Shown here piece by piece: positions 5,144 to 61,299 of a DNA stretch of 64,000 nt (position 1 is the first letter of the stretch; each line of letters begins with the position of its first letter). The notes below the pieces were generated by a model that saw nothing but the letters and a program-made list of their open reading frames with translations, had not been told where the DNA came from and did no database searches. Both the position numbers and the translations under genes were made by a program. Origin of the DNA: Tannerellaceae bacterium (GTDB taxonomy: Bacteria > Bacteroidota > Bacteroidia > Bacteroidales > Tannerellaceae); the NCBI GenBank assembly GCA_031271045.1, contig JAISWO010000017.1, positions 158,306-222,305 on the forward strand. The letters are read 5' to 3'.

Positions 5144-5489
5144 ACCGGGGCTGGTTTTTCCTGCCGGCGTTTGTCCGCTGACCATACCGGCCCCGGTTGG
5201 ATCTGCCGACATTTGTCCGCTGACCATACCGGGGCCAGTTTTTTATGCCGACGTTTGTCCACTCAATTTACCAAGCTTGGTAAAGTGTCCCGACGTTTGT
5301 CCGCTCAACTTACCAAACTTGGTGAGTGTGCCGACATTTGTCCGCTTAACTTACCAAACTTGGTGAGTGTGCCGACATTTGTCCGCTCAATTTACCAAGC
5401 TTGGTAAACTGTGCCGACATTTGTTCGCAGACCTTACCAAGCTTGGTAAACTGTGCCGACGGTTGTTCGCAGACCTTACCGGGGCCGGT
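5144..5489. repeat. Array 1: nine 41-42-bp units, palindromic core ACC-N6-GGT plus spacer ~TGCCGACATTTGTCCGC
   Basis: ACC cores at 5144, 5186, 5228, 5270, 5312, 5353, 5394, 5436, 5478 (spacing 42,42,42,42,41,41,42,42). Confidence 0.95.
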
Positions 5490-14842: not shown

Positions 14843-14965
14843 CCGGAGCTTTCGCAACTCTGCAAAACCTTCCCCGCGACGCGCCGGAGCTTTCGCAAGT
14901 CTGCAAGACCTTCAGCGCGTCGCGCCGGAGCTTTCGCAGATCTGCAAAAGCTTCACAATGTCGCG
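14843..14965. repeat. Array 2: three exact-length 41-bp units (ccggagctttcgcaNNtctgcaaNa...)
   Basis: ccggagctttcgca at 14843, 14884, 14925; third unit carries perfect GCAGATCTGC palindrome. Confidence 0.9.
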
Positions 14966-14995
14966 CCAACGAGAGCGTCGCTCATCCGCAGACTC

Positions 14996-24863: not shown

Positions 24864-25050
24864 GCGTTAACCCTAACGAGAGGCGCGTTAACCCTAACGA
24901 GAGACGCGTTAACCTTAACGAGAGGCGCGTTAACCTTAACGAGAGGCGCGTTAACCCTAACGAGAGGCGCGTTAACCTTAACGAGAGGCGCGTTAACCCT
25001 AACGAGAGGCGCGTTAACCTTAACGGAAGGTGCGTTAACCTTAACGGGGA
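24864..25050. repeat. Array 3: nine 21-bp units GCGTTAACC(C/T)TAACGAGAGGC between hisF and hisIE
   Basis: Units start every 21 bp from 24864; CGTTAA-CC-TTAACG palindromic core. Confidence 0.97.
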
Positions 25051-41783: not shown

Positions 41784-41919
41784 CCCACGTTTTACAATTC
41801 TTCCGGGGCCGGGTGGTTCTTCTAACAGTTGATGGTTTGCTTTTCACGCCCGTCCCCGGTTTTTCCACTTCCGACAGGAAAAAACGATCTTTAATCTTAT
41901 TGTTTAGAACGGATATATT

Positions 41920-42255
41920 GCAGTCCACCGAGCTTCGGATGCAGTCCACCGAGCTTCGGATGCAGTCCACCGAGCTTCGGATGCAGTCCACCGAGCTTCG
42001 GATGCAGTCCACCGAGCTTCGGATGCAGTCCACCGAGCTTCGGATGCAGTCCACCAGGCTTCGGATGCAGTCCACCAGGCTTCGGATGCAGTCCACTAAG
42101 GCTCGGATGCAGTCCACTAAGGCTCGGATGCAGTCCACTAAGGCTCGGATGCAGTCCACTAAGGCTCGGATGCAGTCCACCAGGGCTCCGGTGCAATCTA
42201 TCCAGGTTCCATTGCAATCCATCGAAGCCCCTTTGCTGTCCATCGAAGCGGAGGG
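41920..42255. repeat. Array 4: sixteen 21-bp units GCAGTCCACCGAGCTTCGGAT, decaying rightward
   Basis: Units start every 21 bp from 41920; six identical, then ACCAGGCTTCGG x2, ACTAAGGCTCGG x4, then diverged. Confidence 0.97.
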
Positions 42256-47958: not shown

Positions 47959-50900
47959 TTACAAGTTACCGCATGCCCGTTCCAGTTCGACCATGGCGGC
48001 GGCGCAGTGGTAGAGCGTCTCACTGTGGTTTACCTGTACGTCGTTGTAGGTACGTTGGGCGTTGAGTACTTCGAGAATGGTTGTCTCGCCGCGCTCATAG
48101 CTGTACACTTTCTTTTGGAGAATAACTTCTGCTTCGTCCAGCAGGCCGGCGAACTGCTCTACTTGGCGGCAGGCGGCTGTATAGCGACTGAAGGCTTGCG
48201 CGACTTCCGAAGCGATCTGCAACTCTACGGCCCGGTATTGTTGCTCGCTTTGCGTGGCCGCCAATTGGGCCGCCCGCAATGCGCCCTTGTTGGCGTTGGA
48301 GAATTTCAGCGGGACGCTGATTCCCGCCGTAATTCCCCGGAAGGCAGGCGCGGGCGCTATTTCGTTCAATACTTTCGATGAATACACTCCGCCGATACTG
48401 ATTCCCAGGTCAATCGCACGGTTGGCTTTGGCCAATCGCAGGTTGTTGTACGAAAGCTCCCTCGATTGCAGGGCGGCCTGCAGGTCGGCGCGATTGTTTT
48501 GTGCCGTCGCTATCAGTGCGGGCAACTCCCATTCGCGTTTCGGACAAGACAGTTCCCCCGTTATCGAATCGGGCAAGGCCATGGCGTCGCTTCCCTGGAA
48601 TAATGAGAGTTGAACCAACGCCTGCTTCCACTCGCCTTCGCCCGCATACACCTCATTCAGCATCGTGGCGGCTTCCAGCTTCGATTGCCGGGCATCGACT
48701 TCCATGATCGCTCCCAGGCGAAAGCGCAGGCTGTCGGCGAGCGAGAGCGAGAGCATCTGCCGGTAGGATGTTTTTTGTATTTCGTGCAGCCGCTTTTGTT
48801 TCAAGGCGGCCAGATAGGCCAAGGTGGCGTCGGCCCGGAGGTTGCGGAAATAATCCTCCAGCATGGCGCCGGCCAGTTCTTTTTCGCTTTGCGCCACCCG
48901 TATCCGCGCCCGGCGTTTGCCTCCGAGTTCGAGCGTATAGCTCAATCCGGCGTCGATGCCGTAACCCATTTGCAAGTCCCAGTTCTGGTTGTTGGCATAG
49001 TCGACCGACAGTTCGGGATCGGGGAAGGCCTTGGCGGCTTTCAGGTTGGCCTCGGCGATGTCGACATTGTACTTCTCGGCCAGGTAGCTGACGTTGGAGC
49101 TTCTGACGTTCGACAGGTATTCTTCGAACGTCAGCGTCCGTCCCTGCGCATGCCCGACAAGGCTCACGACGCAGAACAATGCGATCATGGCATATTTCGT
49201 GAGAGGCGTACGTCCGGACGGGGGGGCGGTGGCGGCTCTTTTTTCCATTATGTAATAGAAAGCGGGCAGGACGTAGAGGGTGAGGATGGTGCCGCACAGC
49301 AGGCCGTAAACGATCACCGTGGCCAGCGGACGCTGCACGTCGGAGCCGATACCGGTCGAAAGCGAAGCGGGCAGCAATCCGAGGATCGCTACGGTGGCCG
49401 TCATCAGCACAGGACGCAGGCGATGGGATGCACCGGAAAGGACGGCTTCTTTCAATTCCGTACCCCGCTTGCGCAGGTTATTGATGTGCGAGATCATGAT
49501 GACGCCGTTCTGGATGAAAACGCCGAATAGCGCTATAAAGCCCACCGCCGAGGATACATTGAACGTCATTCCGCGCACTACTAAGGCCAGCATACCTCCG
49601 AAAACGGCCAGCGGCAGCATCCCGATCAGCAAACCCGCCTGGCGGAATTTGCCGAAGGTGAAGAACAGCAGCAGGAACATCACCGCCAGCGTGATGGGCA
49701 TAATAATTGCCAGACGACCGAATGCCCGGCTCTGGTTCTCCAACTGGCCGGCCCAGTGGAAGCGGAACCGGGTGTGATCGTACGGCACCTGGGCTTCGAT
49801 TTTCGATTGGGCTTCACGGACGAAGGAGGTCAGATCCCTTCCGCGCAGGTTCATACGTACGGTAACGAAGCGTTGGTTCATCTCGCGGGAGATCATGCTT
49901 GCGCCCGTCGTCGTCTTGATCTGTGCTACGGCCGAGAGGGGGATCATCGTCCCGGAGGCCGATGTGAGCATCAACGCGCCGATCTTTTCGGGCGTATCGC
50001 GCGATACGTCGTTGTAGCGGCAGATCACATCATACACCTTGCTGCCGATAAATACCTGCGAAACGGCCTTGCCGCCGATGGCTACTTCGATCAGTTCGGC
50101 TACGTCGGCGACATTGAGGCCGTACTGGGCGATCTTGTCGCGGTCGGCCACAATCTGGAGCTGCGGCAGGAAAGGTTCCTCCATAAGACCGACGTCGGCA
50201 GCTCCCGGCACGCCTTCGACCAGCGTTTTCACGGCCTCGGCGATGCGGCGGCTTTCGGTCATATCTTCGCCGTAGATCTTAATCGCCAAGTCGCTATGCG
50301 CTCCGGCAATCTGATCCATCACCATGTCGATGATAGGCTGCGAAAATCCGACGCTGTATCCCGGCATCGTCTCGATCATGGCGGCCATATCGGCGATCAG
50401 GTCCGGCTTCCTCCGGCCGTCCTTCCATGTGTCGTAGGGCTTGAGGCCGATCATTACTTCGATGTGTGAAAAAGAAAAGGGACAGACGCCTTCGTCGTCG
50501 CGCCCGGTCTGGGTCATGACGTAGGTTACTTCGTCGTACACCCGGAGCTTATCGCGGAGCGTCGTGGCCATCTCGGAGGATTTCTCGAGCGACATGCCGG
50601 GAGGCAACTGTATCTGGAGCCAGATGCTGCCTTCGTCGAGCGGAGGCAGGAAGTCTTTCCCGACGTAGACCGAAAGCCCGGCGACGGCAATCAGCACGGC
50701 GGCAATGGGGGCGATGATTTTCCGGGGAGCGGCAATGAGAGCGGCGCTCTGACGCCGGTATATTTCCGTCAGGCGTTCGAGCCAGCGGTTGCGGTAAACT
50801 TTCTGGGGTTTCCGGTACACGGCGTACGCCAGGCCGGGGATCAGGATCAGGGCCGAGGCCAGCGCACCCGCCAGGGCAAAGCTCAAGGTAAAGGCCATCG

Positions 50901-52293
50901 GGGTAAAGAGCTTCTGCTCCACCCTGTCGAAGGCAAAGAGCGGCAGGTAGGCTACGGTGATGATCAGCGTGGCGAAGAAGATGGGGCGGGCTACTTCGGC
51001 GGCGCGTTTGACAATGCCGGCTTCTTCCAGCTCACGGGAGGGATCATCCTCGCGCTTCTTGAGTATCGTCTCCATCATGACGATCGTTCCGTCGACGATG
51101 ATGCCGAAGTCGATGGCTCCAAGCGAGAGCAGATTGGCAGGAATGTCGGTCAGCCACATCAGGATGAAGGCGACAAGCAGCGAGACCGGGATGGTGATCG
51201 TGGCCAATAAGGCGCCTTTCGGACTGCCCAGGAAGATGATCAAGACGCCGACCACGAGCAGGACGCCCAGCAGGAGCGTATGCGAGATGGTGCTCAGCGT
51301 AGCATCAACCAGCTCCGTGCGGTCGTAGAAGGTATGAATTTTTGCGCCTCTGGGGAGGATCCCGTTATTCAGTTCATCGACGGCGCGGTTGATCTCTGCC
51401 AACACCTGGGATGGGTTTTCGTAGCGGAGCAGTTGCACCATACCCTGGACGCCGTCCTCATAATTGATCGCTTCGTCCGTATAGCCCATGATGCCTTTGC
51501 GCTCGAGATTGCCGTACTTCAGTTCGCCCAGGTCTTTGATATAAACGGGGGCTCCGCCGGCTGTCTTGACCACGATGTTGCCCAGGTCTTCGAGATCGCG
51601 CACCAGGCCCACGCCGCGCACCACGTAACTCAGGTCGCCCCGGATGAGCGTGCTGCCGCCGGCGTTGGAATTGTTGCGCTCGATGGATTCGGTTATCTCG
51701 CCAAGCGAAAGATTATACTTTGTCAGTTTGCCCGGGTCGATTTCTATTTGAAATTGCGTGGTGATGCCGCCGAAATTAGATACGTCGGCGATACCGTGGA
51801 TCTGCCTCAGGCGAGGGATGATGAGCCATAAATTGAGCTCGGTCAACTCGCGCAGGCTCTTGTCTCCCGTCACAACGTAGCGGTATATCTCGCCTATGGG
51901 AGATGTCAGCGGATCAAGGCCCGGCTTGGCGTCGAAAGGGAGGTCGATCTCATTGATGCGCTCCAAAACGCGCTGGCGCGCCCAATAGTCGTCGATGCCG
52001 TCTTCAAATACGAGCGTGATTTTGGATATGCCGAAAAAATTCTTGCTCCGCATCACCTTCAGGCCGGGAATGCCGTTTAGCTCGCGCTCCAGGGGGACGG
52101 TGATTTGTTGTTCGATCTCGGCCACGGCAAGGCCGGGGACTTGCGTGGCAACGCCCACCGATACGTCGGCTATATCCGGGTAGGCGTCAATGGCCAACTG
52201 CCGCCAGGCGTATATCCCAACGCCGGCCAGAAGTACGAATATCGTCAGCATCAACCAACGACGCTGAACGAGGGTGTTCATCAGTTTTTCCAT
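47959..52293 (-). CDS. CusA/CzcA heavy-metal RND efflux pump fused to a TolC-like outer membrane factor
   Basis: N-terminal ~1030 aa RND (MEKLMNTLVQRRWLMLTIFVLLAGVGIYAWRQLAIDAYPDIADVSVGVATQVPG); C-terminal LTFEEYLSNVRSSNVSYLAEKYNVDIAEANLKAAKAFPDPELSVDY TolC-like. Confidence 0.92.
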   Translation of the reverse strand: MEKLMNTLVQRRWLMLTIFVLLAGVGIYAWRQLAIDAYPDIADVSVGVATQVPGLAVAEIEQQITVPLERELNGIPGLKVMRSKNFFGISKITLVFEDGIDDYWARQRVLERINEIDLPFDAKPGLDPLTSPIGEIYRYVVTGDKSLRELTELNLWLIIPRLRQIHGIADVSNFGGITTQFQIEIDPGKLTKYNLSLGEITESIERNNSNAGGSTLIRGDLSYVVRGVGLVRDLEDLGNIVVKTAGGAPVYIKDLGELKYGNLERKGIMGYTDEAINYEDGVQGMVQLLRYENPSQVLAEINRAVDELNNGILPRGAKIHTFYDRTELVDATLSTISHTLLLGVLLVVGVLIIFLGSPKGALLATITIPVSLLVAFILMWLTDIPANLLSLGAIDFGIIVDGTIVMMETILKKREDDPSRELEEAGIVKRAAEVARPIFFATLIITVAYLPLFAFDRVEQKLFTPMAFTLSFALAGALASALILIPGLAYAVYRKPQKVYRNRWLERLTEIYRRQSAALIAAPRKIIAPIAAVLIAVAGLSVYVGKDFLPPLDEGSIWLQIQLPPGMSLEKSSEMATTLRDKLRVYDEVTYVMTQTGRDDEGVCPFSFSHIEVMIGLKPYDTWKDGRRKPDLIADMAAMIETMPGYSVGFSQPIIDMVMDQIAGAHSDLAIKIYGEDMTESRRIAEAVKTLVEGVPGAADVGLMEEPFLPQLQIVADRDKIAQYGLNVADVAELIEVAIGGKAVSQVFIGSKVYDVICRYNDVSRDTPEKIGALMLTSASGTMIPLSAVAQIKTTTGASMISREMNQRFVTVRMNLRGRDLTSFVREAQSKIEAQVPYDHTRFRFHWAGQLENQSRAFGRLAIIMPITLAVMFLLLFFTFGKFRQAGLLIGMLPLAVFGGMLALVVRGMTFNVSSAVGFIALFGVFIQNGVIMISHINNLRKRGTELKEAVLSGASHRLRPVLMTATVAILGLLPASLSTGIGSDVQRPLATVIVYGLLCGTILTLYVLPAFYYIMEKRAATAPPSGRTPLTKYAMIALFCVVSLVGHAQGRTLTFEEYLSNVRSSNVSYLAEKYNVDIAEANLKAAKAFPDPELSVDYANNQNWDLQMGYGIDAGLSYTLELGGKRRARIRVAQSEKELAGAMLEDYFRNLRADATLAYLAALKQKRLHEIQKTSYRQMLSLSLADSLRFRLGAIMEVDARQSKLEAATMLNEVYAGEGEWKQALVQLSLFQGSDAMALPDSITGELSCPKREWELPALIATAQNNRADLQAALQSRELSYNNLRLAKANRAIDLGISIGGVYSSKVLNEIAPAPAFRGITAGISVPLKFSNANKGALRAAQLAATQSEQQYRAVELQIASEVAQAFSRYTAACRQVEQFAGLLDEAEVILQKKVYSYERGETTILEVLNAQRTYNDVQVNHSETLYHCAAAMVELERACGNL

Positions 52294-53958: not shown

Positions 53959-54339
53959 ATGCTTAAAAGAGATTTTCTTATGGTACAAATTGAAGAACTG
54001 GGCAAAGTCATTGCCCAGATCGTAGGCCAACGCGACACTGAAGCCGCAAACATGAATCCGGTCCTGGTGCAGGGCGCTTACCAGGCATTGAAAATTGACA
54101 CCAACTACCTGCTGAATACCGCCGTTCCGGACATTATCCTGCGACTTGATGCAGGTGATGGCGGCGGGCTGCAACGGATGGAGATAGCGGCCCGGCTGAT
54201 GATCGAAGAAGCCTGTTTTTCCCCCGACCTTCACACCGCACTCCGCCTGAAAGCGAAAGAAATGCTGCAACACATCCAGGCCAACGATACCACCTTCTCC
54301 ATCGAGCGCAATGCCCTGCTCGACGAACTGGAACAATAA
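53959..54339 (+). CDS. DUF6483-like hypothetical protein
   Basis: MLKRDFLMVQIEELGKVIAQIVGQRD; intact 126-aa ORF. Confidence 0.7.
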   Translation: MLKRDFLMVQIEELGKVIAQIVGQRDTEAANMNPVLVQGAYQALKIDTNYLLNTAVPDIILRLDAGDGGGLQRMEIAARLMIEEACFSPDLHTALRLKAKEMLQHIQANDTTFSIERNALLDELEQ

Positions 54340-54375
54340 ATAATTTTTTCCTTCCCCACAGACCTCGCTGGAGCC

Positions 54376-54935
54376 TTTCACAACGTTGTGAAAACCCCAA
54401 ATAGTTCGCGGGAGCTTTTCACAACATTGTGAAAAGCCCACAGACCGCACCTTGCGATTTTCACAACGTTGTGAAAACGCCACAGACTTCACGGGAGCTT
54501 TTCACAACGTTGTGAAAACGCCACAGAGTTCACGGGAACATTTCACAACGTTGCGAAAAGGCCACAGACTTCATGGGAACATTTCACAACGTTGCGAAAA
54601 GGCCACAGACTTCACGGGAACATTTCACAAGGTTGTGAAAAGACCACAGAGTTCATGGGAACATTTCACAACATTGTGAAAACGTCACAGAGTTCGTGGG
54701 AACATTTCACAATGTTGTGAAAAGGCCACAGAGTTCATGGAAACATTTCACAACGTTGTGAAAAGGCCACAGACTTCGTGGGAACATTTCACAACGTTGT
54801 GAAATGACCACAGACTTTACGGGAGACTTTCCTTTTCCATTTAAAAGCCCCCATAGCTCACGGGAGATGTTCACAATATTATGAAAAGGCCACAGAGTTT
54901 CTGTAGGCTTTTCTTTTTTTATCGAAAAGCTTGGG
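54376..54935. repeat. Array 5: about fourteen 41-bp units built on TTTCACAACGTTGTGAAA
   Basis: Palindrome starts at 54376, 54417, 54459, 54500, 54541, 54582, 54623, 54664, 54705, 54746, 54787; decayed in-phase units at 54828, 54869, 54910. Confidence 0.97.
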
Positions 54936-54973: not shown

Positions 54974-56101
54974 TCAGAGGATCGGGTAATTGAAGAATCT
55001 TTTGGTGAGTACGTTCAGGGCGGCGGCTTCGCCAAGAAAATGAAAAACCTGATGATGATGGCTCATGGATGCGCCGGGAACAATAAAGATGGCAGGCGAT
55101 TGACTCTCCAATTCGAGGAAAGGCCCCATGATACTGCCGTCGGCGAGCGGGCCGTCGTTATAGGCGTTGAAAACGTCGCCCACCAGCGGGTCTTTGGCGG
55201 TGTCCCATTCCTGATTCAGGTAGACGGCATCCCGGTCAAGGTCGAAAATAGCAACGGCCAGATGCCCGGAGTCGGGGTCGTAATTCCCGGCAATGGTTTT
55301 GGTTCGCCGGCTGTTCAGTCCGATTTTACTGCGGAAATTCCCGTCTGTCTTCAGGCATGCGCAACCGTCTTTTTCGGCGTAACGTCCGCCGGGGATCTCG
55401 CCGAAATAGGCGGTGGTAGCGACCGGGCCCAAATCTCGCTCGTCACCCTGTACAAAAGGTACGATCGTGAAGGAGCGCGGCGCCGTGCAAAACATATCGA
55501 GGATCCAGATACAGACGGCGCCTGTCTGCGGCGTCCATTCAAAATCGTTCCGGTTGGTCAGGGTGTTTTCGGTTGCATAAGCCACGGCTTGCAGGTTTTC
55601 TTCGGGGAGGCCCCCGCAGGCGGCAGCGATCTCGCCGGCATCCATGAGGCGCACCTTCCGGCTGACGTTCATCCGCAAATGAGTTCCCATGTAGTTCAAT
55701 ATTTCGAGATCTTTCTCCATCCGGATGTCTTTCCTGCCTGCGCCGGTCACCTGCCAGGGTTCCGTATCGAAGGGGCGTGGCGTGCGCCAATTGTCATAAA
55801 CCTGGCGGACGCCCGGCTTGAAAAAGACGGAGAAACGACCTCCTTCGGGCCCTATCCATAGGCGATTTTCTCCTCCGTAACCATTCATGTGTTCGTTGAG
55901 AACGGCGGATTCGAAGGCTTTATAGTTCACAAAGCCGAGGCTCCGGCCTTCTTTTCCTCCGACGGTGGAGGTAAATACTTTGCCCTGGTATTGGGGAGAT
56001 ACGATCACCTGCGCCTGCTCGTCGTCGCTCGCCAGAAGATGCATGCTTCCGCGGCGGGACAGGTACTGCAAATCGTAGCCAAAAGTTCCTTTTGCGTACA
56101 T
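54974..56101 (-). CDS. DUF6786-like conserved hypothetical protein
   Basis: MYAKGTFGYDLQYLSRRGSMHLLASDDEQAQVIVSPQYQGKVFTSTVGGKEGRSLGFVNY. Confidence 0.65.
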   Translation of the reverse strand: MYAKGTFGYDLQYLSRRGSMHLLASDDEQAQVIVSPQYQGKVFTSTVGGKEGRSLGFVNYKAFESAVLNEHMNGYGGENRLWIGPEGGRFSVFFKPGVRQVYDNWRTPRPFDTEPWQVTGAGRKDIRMEKDLEILNYMGTHLRMNVSRKVRLMDAGEIAAACGGLPEENLQAVAYATENTLTNRNDFEWTPQTGAVCIWILDMFCTAPRSFTIVPFVQGDERDLGPVATTAYFGEIPGGRYAEKDGCACLKTDGNFRSKIGLNSRRTKTIAGNYDPDSGHLAVAIFDLDRDAVYLNQEWDTAKDPLVGDVFNAYNDGPLADGSIMGPFLELESQSPAIFIVPGASMSHHHQVFHFLGEAAALNVLTKRFFNYPIL

Positions 56102-59640: not shown

Positions 59641-61299
59641 TTAGTTTTCCACCGGCTGATAGAGGTAGCGTTTGATGCTCCGCTTGGGTGTTTTTTCAAA
59701 TTCTTCGGCCAGGAGTTTGAAGCTGCTTACTTTGCTGTATTGTGGGAGCTTCCGGTTGAGCGCTTCCAGGTTTTCCTGCATCAGGCTGGCGATTTGTGCA
59801 TCATCTAAGTTTTCACGGTCTATTTTTTCCATATCGGGATAAATGAGGGCCACCAGTTTGCCTTCTTGATAGATGATCAGGGATTCGGTTACGCAGGGCA
59901 TATTATTGAGGAGATCTTCGATTTCTTCGGGGTAGATATTTTGTCCGTTCGAGCTTAGGATCATGGTTTTGCTGCGTCCGCGGATATAGAGTACGCCATC
60001 GGAGTCGAGCAGCCCGAGGTCACCGGTATTCATCCATCCGTCGGGGGAGAGGATGGCTTCGGTGGCGGCGGGGTTCTTGTAGTAGCCCAGCATGATGCTG
60101 GTTCCTTTGACGAATATTTCGCCCACGTTGTCGGCGTCGGGGTGATCGATGCGTACTTCCATCCGGTCGACGATACGTCCGACGGAGCCTTGTTTGAAGA
60201 CGTCCCACTGGGAGTAGGCGACTAAGGGGCCGCACTCGGTCAGGCCGTAGCCTACGGTATAACGGAAGTTTATTTCATGGAGGAAGTTTTCTACTTCTTT
60301 GTTCAGGGCGGCTCCGCCGACGACGACTTCGGAGACGTTACCGCCGAAGGCTTGTTCCAGCTTGGAGGCTATGGTGCGCAGTATGATCTTCCGTACACCG
60401 GGCAGTTTCAGCAGGAAGCGGATGGGGGGCTATAGCAGTTGGGGGAAAACACGGCTTTTGACCATCTTCTCGATAATCAGCGGGACGGCCAGGATCAGGG
60501 TTGGGCGGAGCCTTGCAAAGGATTCGAGCAGGAGCTTCGGACTGGGCGTACGGGTCAGGAAATGGATGTGGCATCCTTTGCCTACGGCATTGAGTATCTC
60601 GAATGCCAGGCCGTACATGTGGGCCATCGGCAGCATGCAGACTAAGTTGTCGCCTGCGTGGATGAAGGGCAGGGCTTCGTTGGCGTATTTCGTATTGCTC
60701 CAGAGGCTGCGGTATGGCAGCATCACACCTTTGGACGAGGAGGTGGTGCCTGATGTATAATTCAGTACGGCCAGTTCGTCGGGTGCTTCGGCGTGGTAGG
60801 CGATATGGGCGGCGTTGAAGCCTCCGGGGTACTTCTTAACAAAGTATTCATCCCAGCGGTTGCGCGCGTCGAAGGCGCTTTGTTCGCTGGCCAGGAGGAT
60901 AGAGAAGTCGTCGAGCAGGATAGCCAGCTTCAGTCCTGGCATGGCTTCGGCTTCGAGATGTTCCCAGTTGGACGATCCGGCCAGTATGGCCTTTGCCTCG
61001 GAGTGGTTGATGATATGATGAATGTTCTCCGGCTTGAAGTCGTGGAGGATTGGGACGGCTACTGCGCCGTAGGTCAGTACGCCGAAGAAACTGATGGCCC
61101 AGTGCGACGAGTTGCGTCCGACCAGGGCTACCTTGTCTCCCTGACGGATTCCAGCTTGTTCGAGCAGGATGTGCAGATAGGCGATCTGCTTTGCCACATC
61201 TTTATAATAATAGGTCTTGCCTTTGTAGTCTGAAAAGCCCGGCAGTTCCCAGTATTCTTTTATACTGTTTTCGATAATGCCCAAGAAACGATTTTCCAT
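59641..61299 (-). pseudogene. Long-chain acyl-CoA synthetase (AMP-binding) interrupted by one in-frame TAG
   Basis: N-part 60430-61299 (YTSGTTSSSKGVMLPYRSL) and C-part 59641-60162 (TGDLGLLDSDGVLYIRGRSKTMILSSNGQNIYPEEIED) share a frame; between them reads PPIRFLLKLPGVRKIILRTIASKLEQAFGGNVSEVVVGGAALNKEVENFLHEINFRYTVGYGLTECGPLVAYSQWDVFKQGSVGRIVDRMEV with only one stop at 60430-60432. Confidence 0.88.

Follow-up and report, generated by a model that had tools for sequence, protein, structure and literature searches.

An intergenic array of fourteen in-register 41-bp units built on an 18-bp dyad in a Tannerellaceae genome

Several groups of bacteria have tandem repeats whose size is constant although their sequence varies. 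In the description given by Subirana and Messeguer, the units measure 52 nt in Firmicutes and 20–23 nt in many other groups (PMC8161180). They are non-coding, abundant in some species, and species-specific in sequence, with several families in a single genome (PMC8161180 and an earlier survey, its ref. 3). The same authors pointed out that 20–21 nt correspond to two turns of the helix and that the repeats can hold a short signal together with its reverse, and they proposed roles as nucleoid protein sites or small RNAs; the word 'palindrome' does not occur in their article (PMC8161180). Closer in taxonomy, P. gingivalis, from the same bacterial order as the genome studied here, has tandem repeats of 22, 23, and 41 nt in its BrickBuilt and 464/PgRS elements, which are intergenic, species-specific, present at several loci per genome, and predicted to form stem-loops (PMC4596501). 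The REP and BIME elements associated with RAYT are a third point of comparison, being dispersed intergenic palindromes.

We analysed an array that lies within a window of 64,000 nucleotides (contig JAISWO010000017.1, positions 158,306–222,305) from a 2.79-Mb draft genome of a Tannerellaceae bacterium, assembled in 74 contigs and 88.5% complete (about 11% is missing). It occupies positions 54356–54929 of the window and consists of fourteen 41-bp units in the gap between two convergent genes. Its features are listed below, with (.) for those that have no strand.

53959–54339 (+): left convergent gene, 126-aa ORF without family match; its stop codon is 17 bp ahead of the array
54356–54929 (.): tandem array, 14 units of 41 bp with one 42-bp step (TRF and walk of box positions)
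54376–54393 (.): palindromic box 1, TTTCACAACGTTGTGAAA
54417–54434 (.): palindromic box 2, 1 mismatch
54459–54476 (.): palindromic box 3, perfect, preceded by the 42-bp step
54500–54517 (.): palindromic box 4, perfect
54541–54558 (.): palindromic box 5, 1 mismatch (GTTGCGAAA)
54582–54599 (.): palindromic box 6, 1 mismatch (GTTGCGAAA)
54623–54640 (.): palindromic box 7, 1 mismatch
54664–54681 (.): palindromic box 8, 1 mismatch
54705–54722 (.): palindromic box 9, 1 mismatch
54746–54763 (.): palindromic box 10, perfect
54787–54804 (.): palindromic box 11, perfect, with symmetry extended outward (CATTTC...GAAATG)
54828–54845 (.): degenerate box 12, 8/18, in phase
54869–54886 (.): degenerate box 13, 14/18, TTCACAATATTATGAA, in phase
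54910–54927 (.): degenerate box 14, 9/18, in phase, retaining the outer inverted repeat GCTTTTC...GAAAAGC
54974–56101 (−): right convergent gene, DUF6786 protein of 375 aa (PF20583, E=9e-133); its stop codon is 45 bp past the array

The initial annotation of this DNA had described fourteen phase-locked units of 41 bp, and both TRF and the walk along the boxes bear this out. TRF gives a period of 41 at 54356–54824 (11.4 copies, 85% matches, 0% indels), and its 123-bp row extends the array to 54899. The boxes lie at 54376, 54417, and 54459, then at 41-bp steps up to 54910, and the sole irregular step is the 42 bp between the second and the third. The start had been placed at 54376, which is too late because periodic units already begin at 54356. 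Each unit joins an 18-bp dyad to a 23-bp directional spacer. The dyad had been called a perfect palindrome; 11 boxes are within one mismatch of TTTCACAACGTTGTGAAA (shuffled windows yield 0.01 matches at up to three mismatches), but the palindrome is perfect in only 5 of the 14. The last three boxes (54828, 54869, and 54910) match it at 8, 14, and 9 of 18 bases and retain both phase and partial inverted repeats, as had been noticed for the degraded terminal units. The spacer is indeed conserved, as claimed, but with a variability of 18.1% it changes about twice as much as the box, at 7.4%.

The convergence of the flanking genes was also correctly read. The left ORF was not found in the DNA of the relatives we compared. 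The closest named relatives of the DUF6786 protein are mostly in Tannerellaceae metagenome-assembled genomes (MAGs), which we take to come from termite guts, given the naming of the isolates. Two other genes of the window, judged from their translations, deserve mention: an apparently split gene resembling an AMP-dependent acyl-CoA synthetase (59641–61299, −; ORFs of 289 and 173 aa), where a frameshift or an assembly error is possible, and a single ORF of 1444 aa (47959–52293, −) that resembles an RND metal efflux pump fused to a TolC-like outer membrane factor.

The array belongs to a large population. We surveyed 518 kb of the genome, window included, in stretches sampled irrespective of whether this palindrome occurs in them. 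All of the 36 intergenic arrays found there have a period of 21–23 or 41–43 bp: 14 of 21 bp, 2 of 22, 6 of 23, 4 of 41, 9 of 42, 1 of 43, and no others. Extrapolating the density of these stretches, many of which begin at contig ends and may be slightly enriched in repeats, gives about 190 arrays genome-wide. The pattern extends to the genus: 97 of the 106 intergenic arrays of 19 congeneric genomes have periods of 21–23 or 40–44 bp, and intragenic repeats show many other multiples of three besides. Species differ in the periods they use (only 40–42 in G018, mostly 22 in G002), and no array was found in the small samples of G004, G012, G015, G016, and G017. Across G000–G018, array density is lower where the estimated genome is larger (Spearman −0.59, p 0.008), a correlation drawn from small samples and confounded by completeness.

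These arrays share sizes and rarely sequences. Only a few were matched across species among all arrays compared, 20 of the 49 compared match no other array, and the one genome holds many unrelated families. The palindrome of the window array occurs in none of 18 congeneric genomes, and any role it has is thus not conserved at this locus. The window itself has four more arrays of the same size classes, at 5161–5460 (42 bp), 14843–14967 (41 bp), 24864–25046 (21 bp), and 41919–42182 (21 bp), each with its own sequence and two with clear palindromes (TTACCAAGCTTGGTAA and CGTTAACCTTAACG).

These traits place the arrays close to the constant-size satellites. Fourteen head-to-tail intergenic units compare with a published criterion of at least four non-coding repeats, and the size classes are shared across many unrelated families in all 36 arrays of the genome. 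Of these arrays, 22 fall in the published range of 20–23 nt; the window array, at 41 bp, has about twice that size, yet units of the 40–46 bp class are not dimeric. Their half-period identity is 0.29, the same as in shuffled sequences, and we rejected across the class the idea that a 41–42-bp unit is a dimer of a 21-bp one. A large second class at 40–44 bp, usually not a dimer of the 21–23-bp class, distinguishes the genus. The 2020 survey by Subirana and Messeguer reportedly names a 22/44 class as well. Two further differences are dyad boxes that are more conserved than their spacers and an in-phase switch of orientation within one array, both described below. The likeness to BrickBuilt and 464/PgRS elements is in size only, with a 41-bp core in the window array and 23-bp cores elsewhere in the genome. 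BrickBuilt has a leader and a tail with terminal inverted repeats, whereas our arrays align only within the repeats; P. gingivalis has few families, and this genome has many. Likewise, REP and BIME elements occur as singlets or pairs, unlike the long in-phase arrays found here in a genome where we detect no RAYT. Matches to both the published satellites and the P. gingivalis repeats make these arrays a rich new case, a variant of a known and unexplained kind. In the satellite and P. gingivalis repeat literature that we compared, we did not find descriptions of box-over-spacer conservation, of the in-phase switch, or of the two size classes in this genus.

Symmetry, phase, and conservation are not peculiar to the window array. 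Inverted-repeat arms of at least 6 bp occur in 38 of 97 arrays, where shuffled units would give 3.0 and intergenic DNA outside arrays 5.9. The arms average 5.2 bp in array units; the corresponding means are 3.4 bp after shuffling and 3.5 bp for the rest of the intergenic DNA. About 60% of the arrays have no clear palindrome. The register is very strict, with 506 of 542 unit steps exactly equal to the period. Among the 27 arrays that have four or more units and arms of 6 bp or longer, variability is 7.6% in the box and 16.1% in the spacer, and the box varies less than the spacer in 24. When ranked among all windows of the same length, the box has a mean rank of 0.20 in these 27 arrays (0.5 expected, z 5.4), and in both the window array and its sister array it ranks first for conservation.

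This sister array (L005, 8923–9370), 130 kb away on the same contig, carries the same palindrome. Its first five spacers repeat those found in the window array, and the remaining ones fit the window spacer only when inverted: 16–17 of 23 positions match in the two clearest spacers, versus 9–10 in direct orientation (shuffled mean 6), and 14 versus 8 in a third. The 41-bp phase is continuous over the junction between the two orientations, which sits at a palindrome. Since orientation flips while phase is kept, the conserved unit is the dyad and not the strand. Other arrays of the genome, with periods of 23 and 42 bp, contain a shorter common core (CACAACGTTGTG or close to it). Similarity between members of one family ends at the edges of the repeat or no more than a few bases from them. 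In a 23-bp array (L007, 7120–7270), the box passes from TCCACAACGYTGTGGA to TGTGCAACGTTGCACA in phase, either by a symmetric change at three adjacent positions or at the junction of two families. Beside the sister array, a DUF5020 protein (L005, 8465–8755, −) matches only the C-terminal part of its profile, and the gene may be truncated.

With a probability that we put at roughly 0.4, we read the window array as a locally amplifying non-coding minisatellite whose dyad sites are in register and probably serve as binding sites for a dimeric protein. Such arrays would arise in short intergenic gaps, where slippage or unequal exchange would lengthen and shorten them, and would spread to new sites. 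Amplification through these two processes, combined with rearrangements at the palindromes, would explain array formation most economically. A putative dimeric DNA-binding protein, or a few such proteins, would load on the boxes at regular steps, and the dyads would persist for this reason; by coating intergenic DNA, it may have a local role in nucleoid structure or as a barrier, and would not act at a promoter operator. Recognition of the box by a dimeric protein is favoured because constraint is stronger on the box than on the spacer, and because neither the strand nor the gene context matters. The description of the site as operator-like in the initial annotation fits the dyad symmetry, the conservation of the box over the spacer, and the exact phase. 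The main weakness of the protein model is that a single genome has so many different boxes: with 20 of 49 arrays matching no other, they cannot all be served by one sequence-specific protein. A broader proposal, that a putative architectural protein system reads regularly spaced dyads (or cruciforms) in the intergenic DNA of hundreds of arrays in this Bacteroidales lineage, with selection on length, symmetry, and phase and not on sequence, seems to us unlikely.

The main rival is a neutral, mutational origin, which we consider quite possible if somewhat doubtful. The array would then be a functionless self-propagating minisatellite, in which palindrome hairpins lead slippage and template switching to duplicate, flip, and spread units, and the mutational machinery sets the size classes. 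Turnover is rapid, as illustrated by the absence of the palindrome from the congeneric genomes and by one pair of empty and filled sites. Two Tannerella MAGs, 76–79% identical across 12 kb, differ at one orthologous intergenic site: in one (L067, 8469–8673) it holds a palindromic array of about ten 21-bp units with CCGATACGTATCGG, and in the other (L063, 8360–8415) the flanking blocks are about 11 bp apart. This indicates that arrays can appear in tiny gaps between genes. Near-direct repeats (TACAGGAACCG and TACAGAACCGG) flank the filled array. In 47 of 73 arrays, divergence is greater in the terminal units than in the interior, as expected for turnover by slippage or unequal exchange. The orientation flip of the sister array falls at a palindrome, and no flanks are common to the arrays of one family. 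Mutation by template switching at quasi-palindromes is moreover documented (PMC7202029; PMC8794818). Three observations speak against neutrality. Spacers vary about twice as much as boxes. Arm-to-arm template copying predicts that compensated double changes are common, and we count 12 of them versus 163 single changes. Finally, to our knowledge no slippage mechanism yields units of 21–23 and 40–44 bp to the near-exclusion of 24–39 bp.

The sizes are also hard to explain by the geometry of the helix. We rejected a filter by promoter phase, in which only whole helical turns are tolerated upstream of promoters, because convergent arrays, which lack a downstream promoter, show the same periods (6 in the genus). 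At 10.5 bp per turn, successive units drift by about 70 degrees for a period of 23 and about 35 degrees for a period of 41. This drift, together with the near-absence of three-turn arrays, means that simple same-face phasing fails to explain the sizes, and pure helical phasing is weakened accordingly. Periods of 31–32 bp are nearly absent in G000–G018, versus plentiful 21–23 and 40–44, and none of the explanations tested accounts for this.

A role at the RNA level, where a transcribed hairpin array would serve as a bidirectional terminator, a stabiliser of mRNA 3' ends, or a source of small RNAs, is improbable. It would suit an array between two converging gene ends, both strands of which have folding scores well beyond those of shuffled sequences (z −11.0 and −18.2), and a multi-hairpin RNA had been proposed on first inspection. 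However, palindromes themselves fold, and an array of them does so by construction. The 31 resolved gene pairs that flank arrays in this genome (12 −−, 8 ++, 8 −+, and 3 +−) track the orientations of all gaps of at least 150 bp (28 −−, 24 ++, 28 −+, and 10 +−). Only 3 of the 31 are convergent, and the convergent setting is incidental to the window array. The RNA reading is further disfavoured by the flip of units within one array and by the arms, in which 20 double changes are seen versus 16.7 expected, 12 of the 20 being complementary; this lack of excess led us to reject compensatory pairing. Terminator-like sites are not in excess of chance, Rfam has no match to the array, and no tRNA lies in it.

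It is very improbable that the array titrates, as a decoy, a regulator whose working operators lie at promoters elsewhere. A dyad of operator size, perfect and in many copies, had suggested such titration, which predicts single copies in the genome. The search for these was negative: every match to the 16-bp core with up to two mismatches, in a genome of which about 11% is missing, is at an array locus. The 12-bp core with one mismatch gave about 5 non-array matches among the matches listed, versus 4 for a reversed-pattern control. Isolated boxes are thus at chance level, and titration away from promoter operators is unsupported. The phage and plasmid collections gave no match, and viral contigs held one exact single copy of the palindrome, outside any array.

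We regard the remnant of a mobile element, either REP/RAYT or a MITE with a tandem core like BrickBuilt, as slightly less credible still, even if one box family occupies several loci of the genome and BrickBuilt MITEs do have 23-nt tandem cores in P. gingivalis (PMC4596501). The absence of Y1_Tnp speaks against REP/RAYT, with 0 matches in the 88.5% complete genome and none in the array-rich G001 and G011. Arrays of one family have only the repeat in common, with similarity stopping at its edges and no shared leader, tail, or terminal inverted repeats between the members compared, which argues against a MITE. A CRISPR-like array, suggested by regular palindromic repeats with spacers, is refuted, as the window array has spacers that are nearly identical to each other, and elsewhere in the genome the arrays likewise repeat the whole unit head to tail.

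Why bacterial genomes carry tandem repeats of fixed size but differing sequence is an open puzzle. The genus studied here pairs array-rich species (G000, G001, G011, and G018) with array-poor ones (G004, G007, and G013). Together with the two size classes, the conserved symmetric box, and the in-phase switch of orientation, this makes the choice between selection and a mutational mechanism testable. The same features argue that it is the double-stranded DNA, rather than a transcript, that matters.
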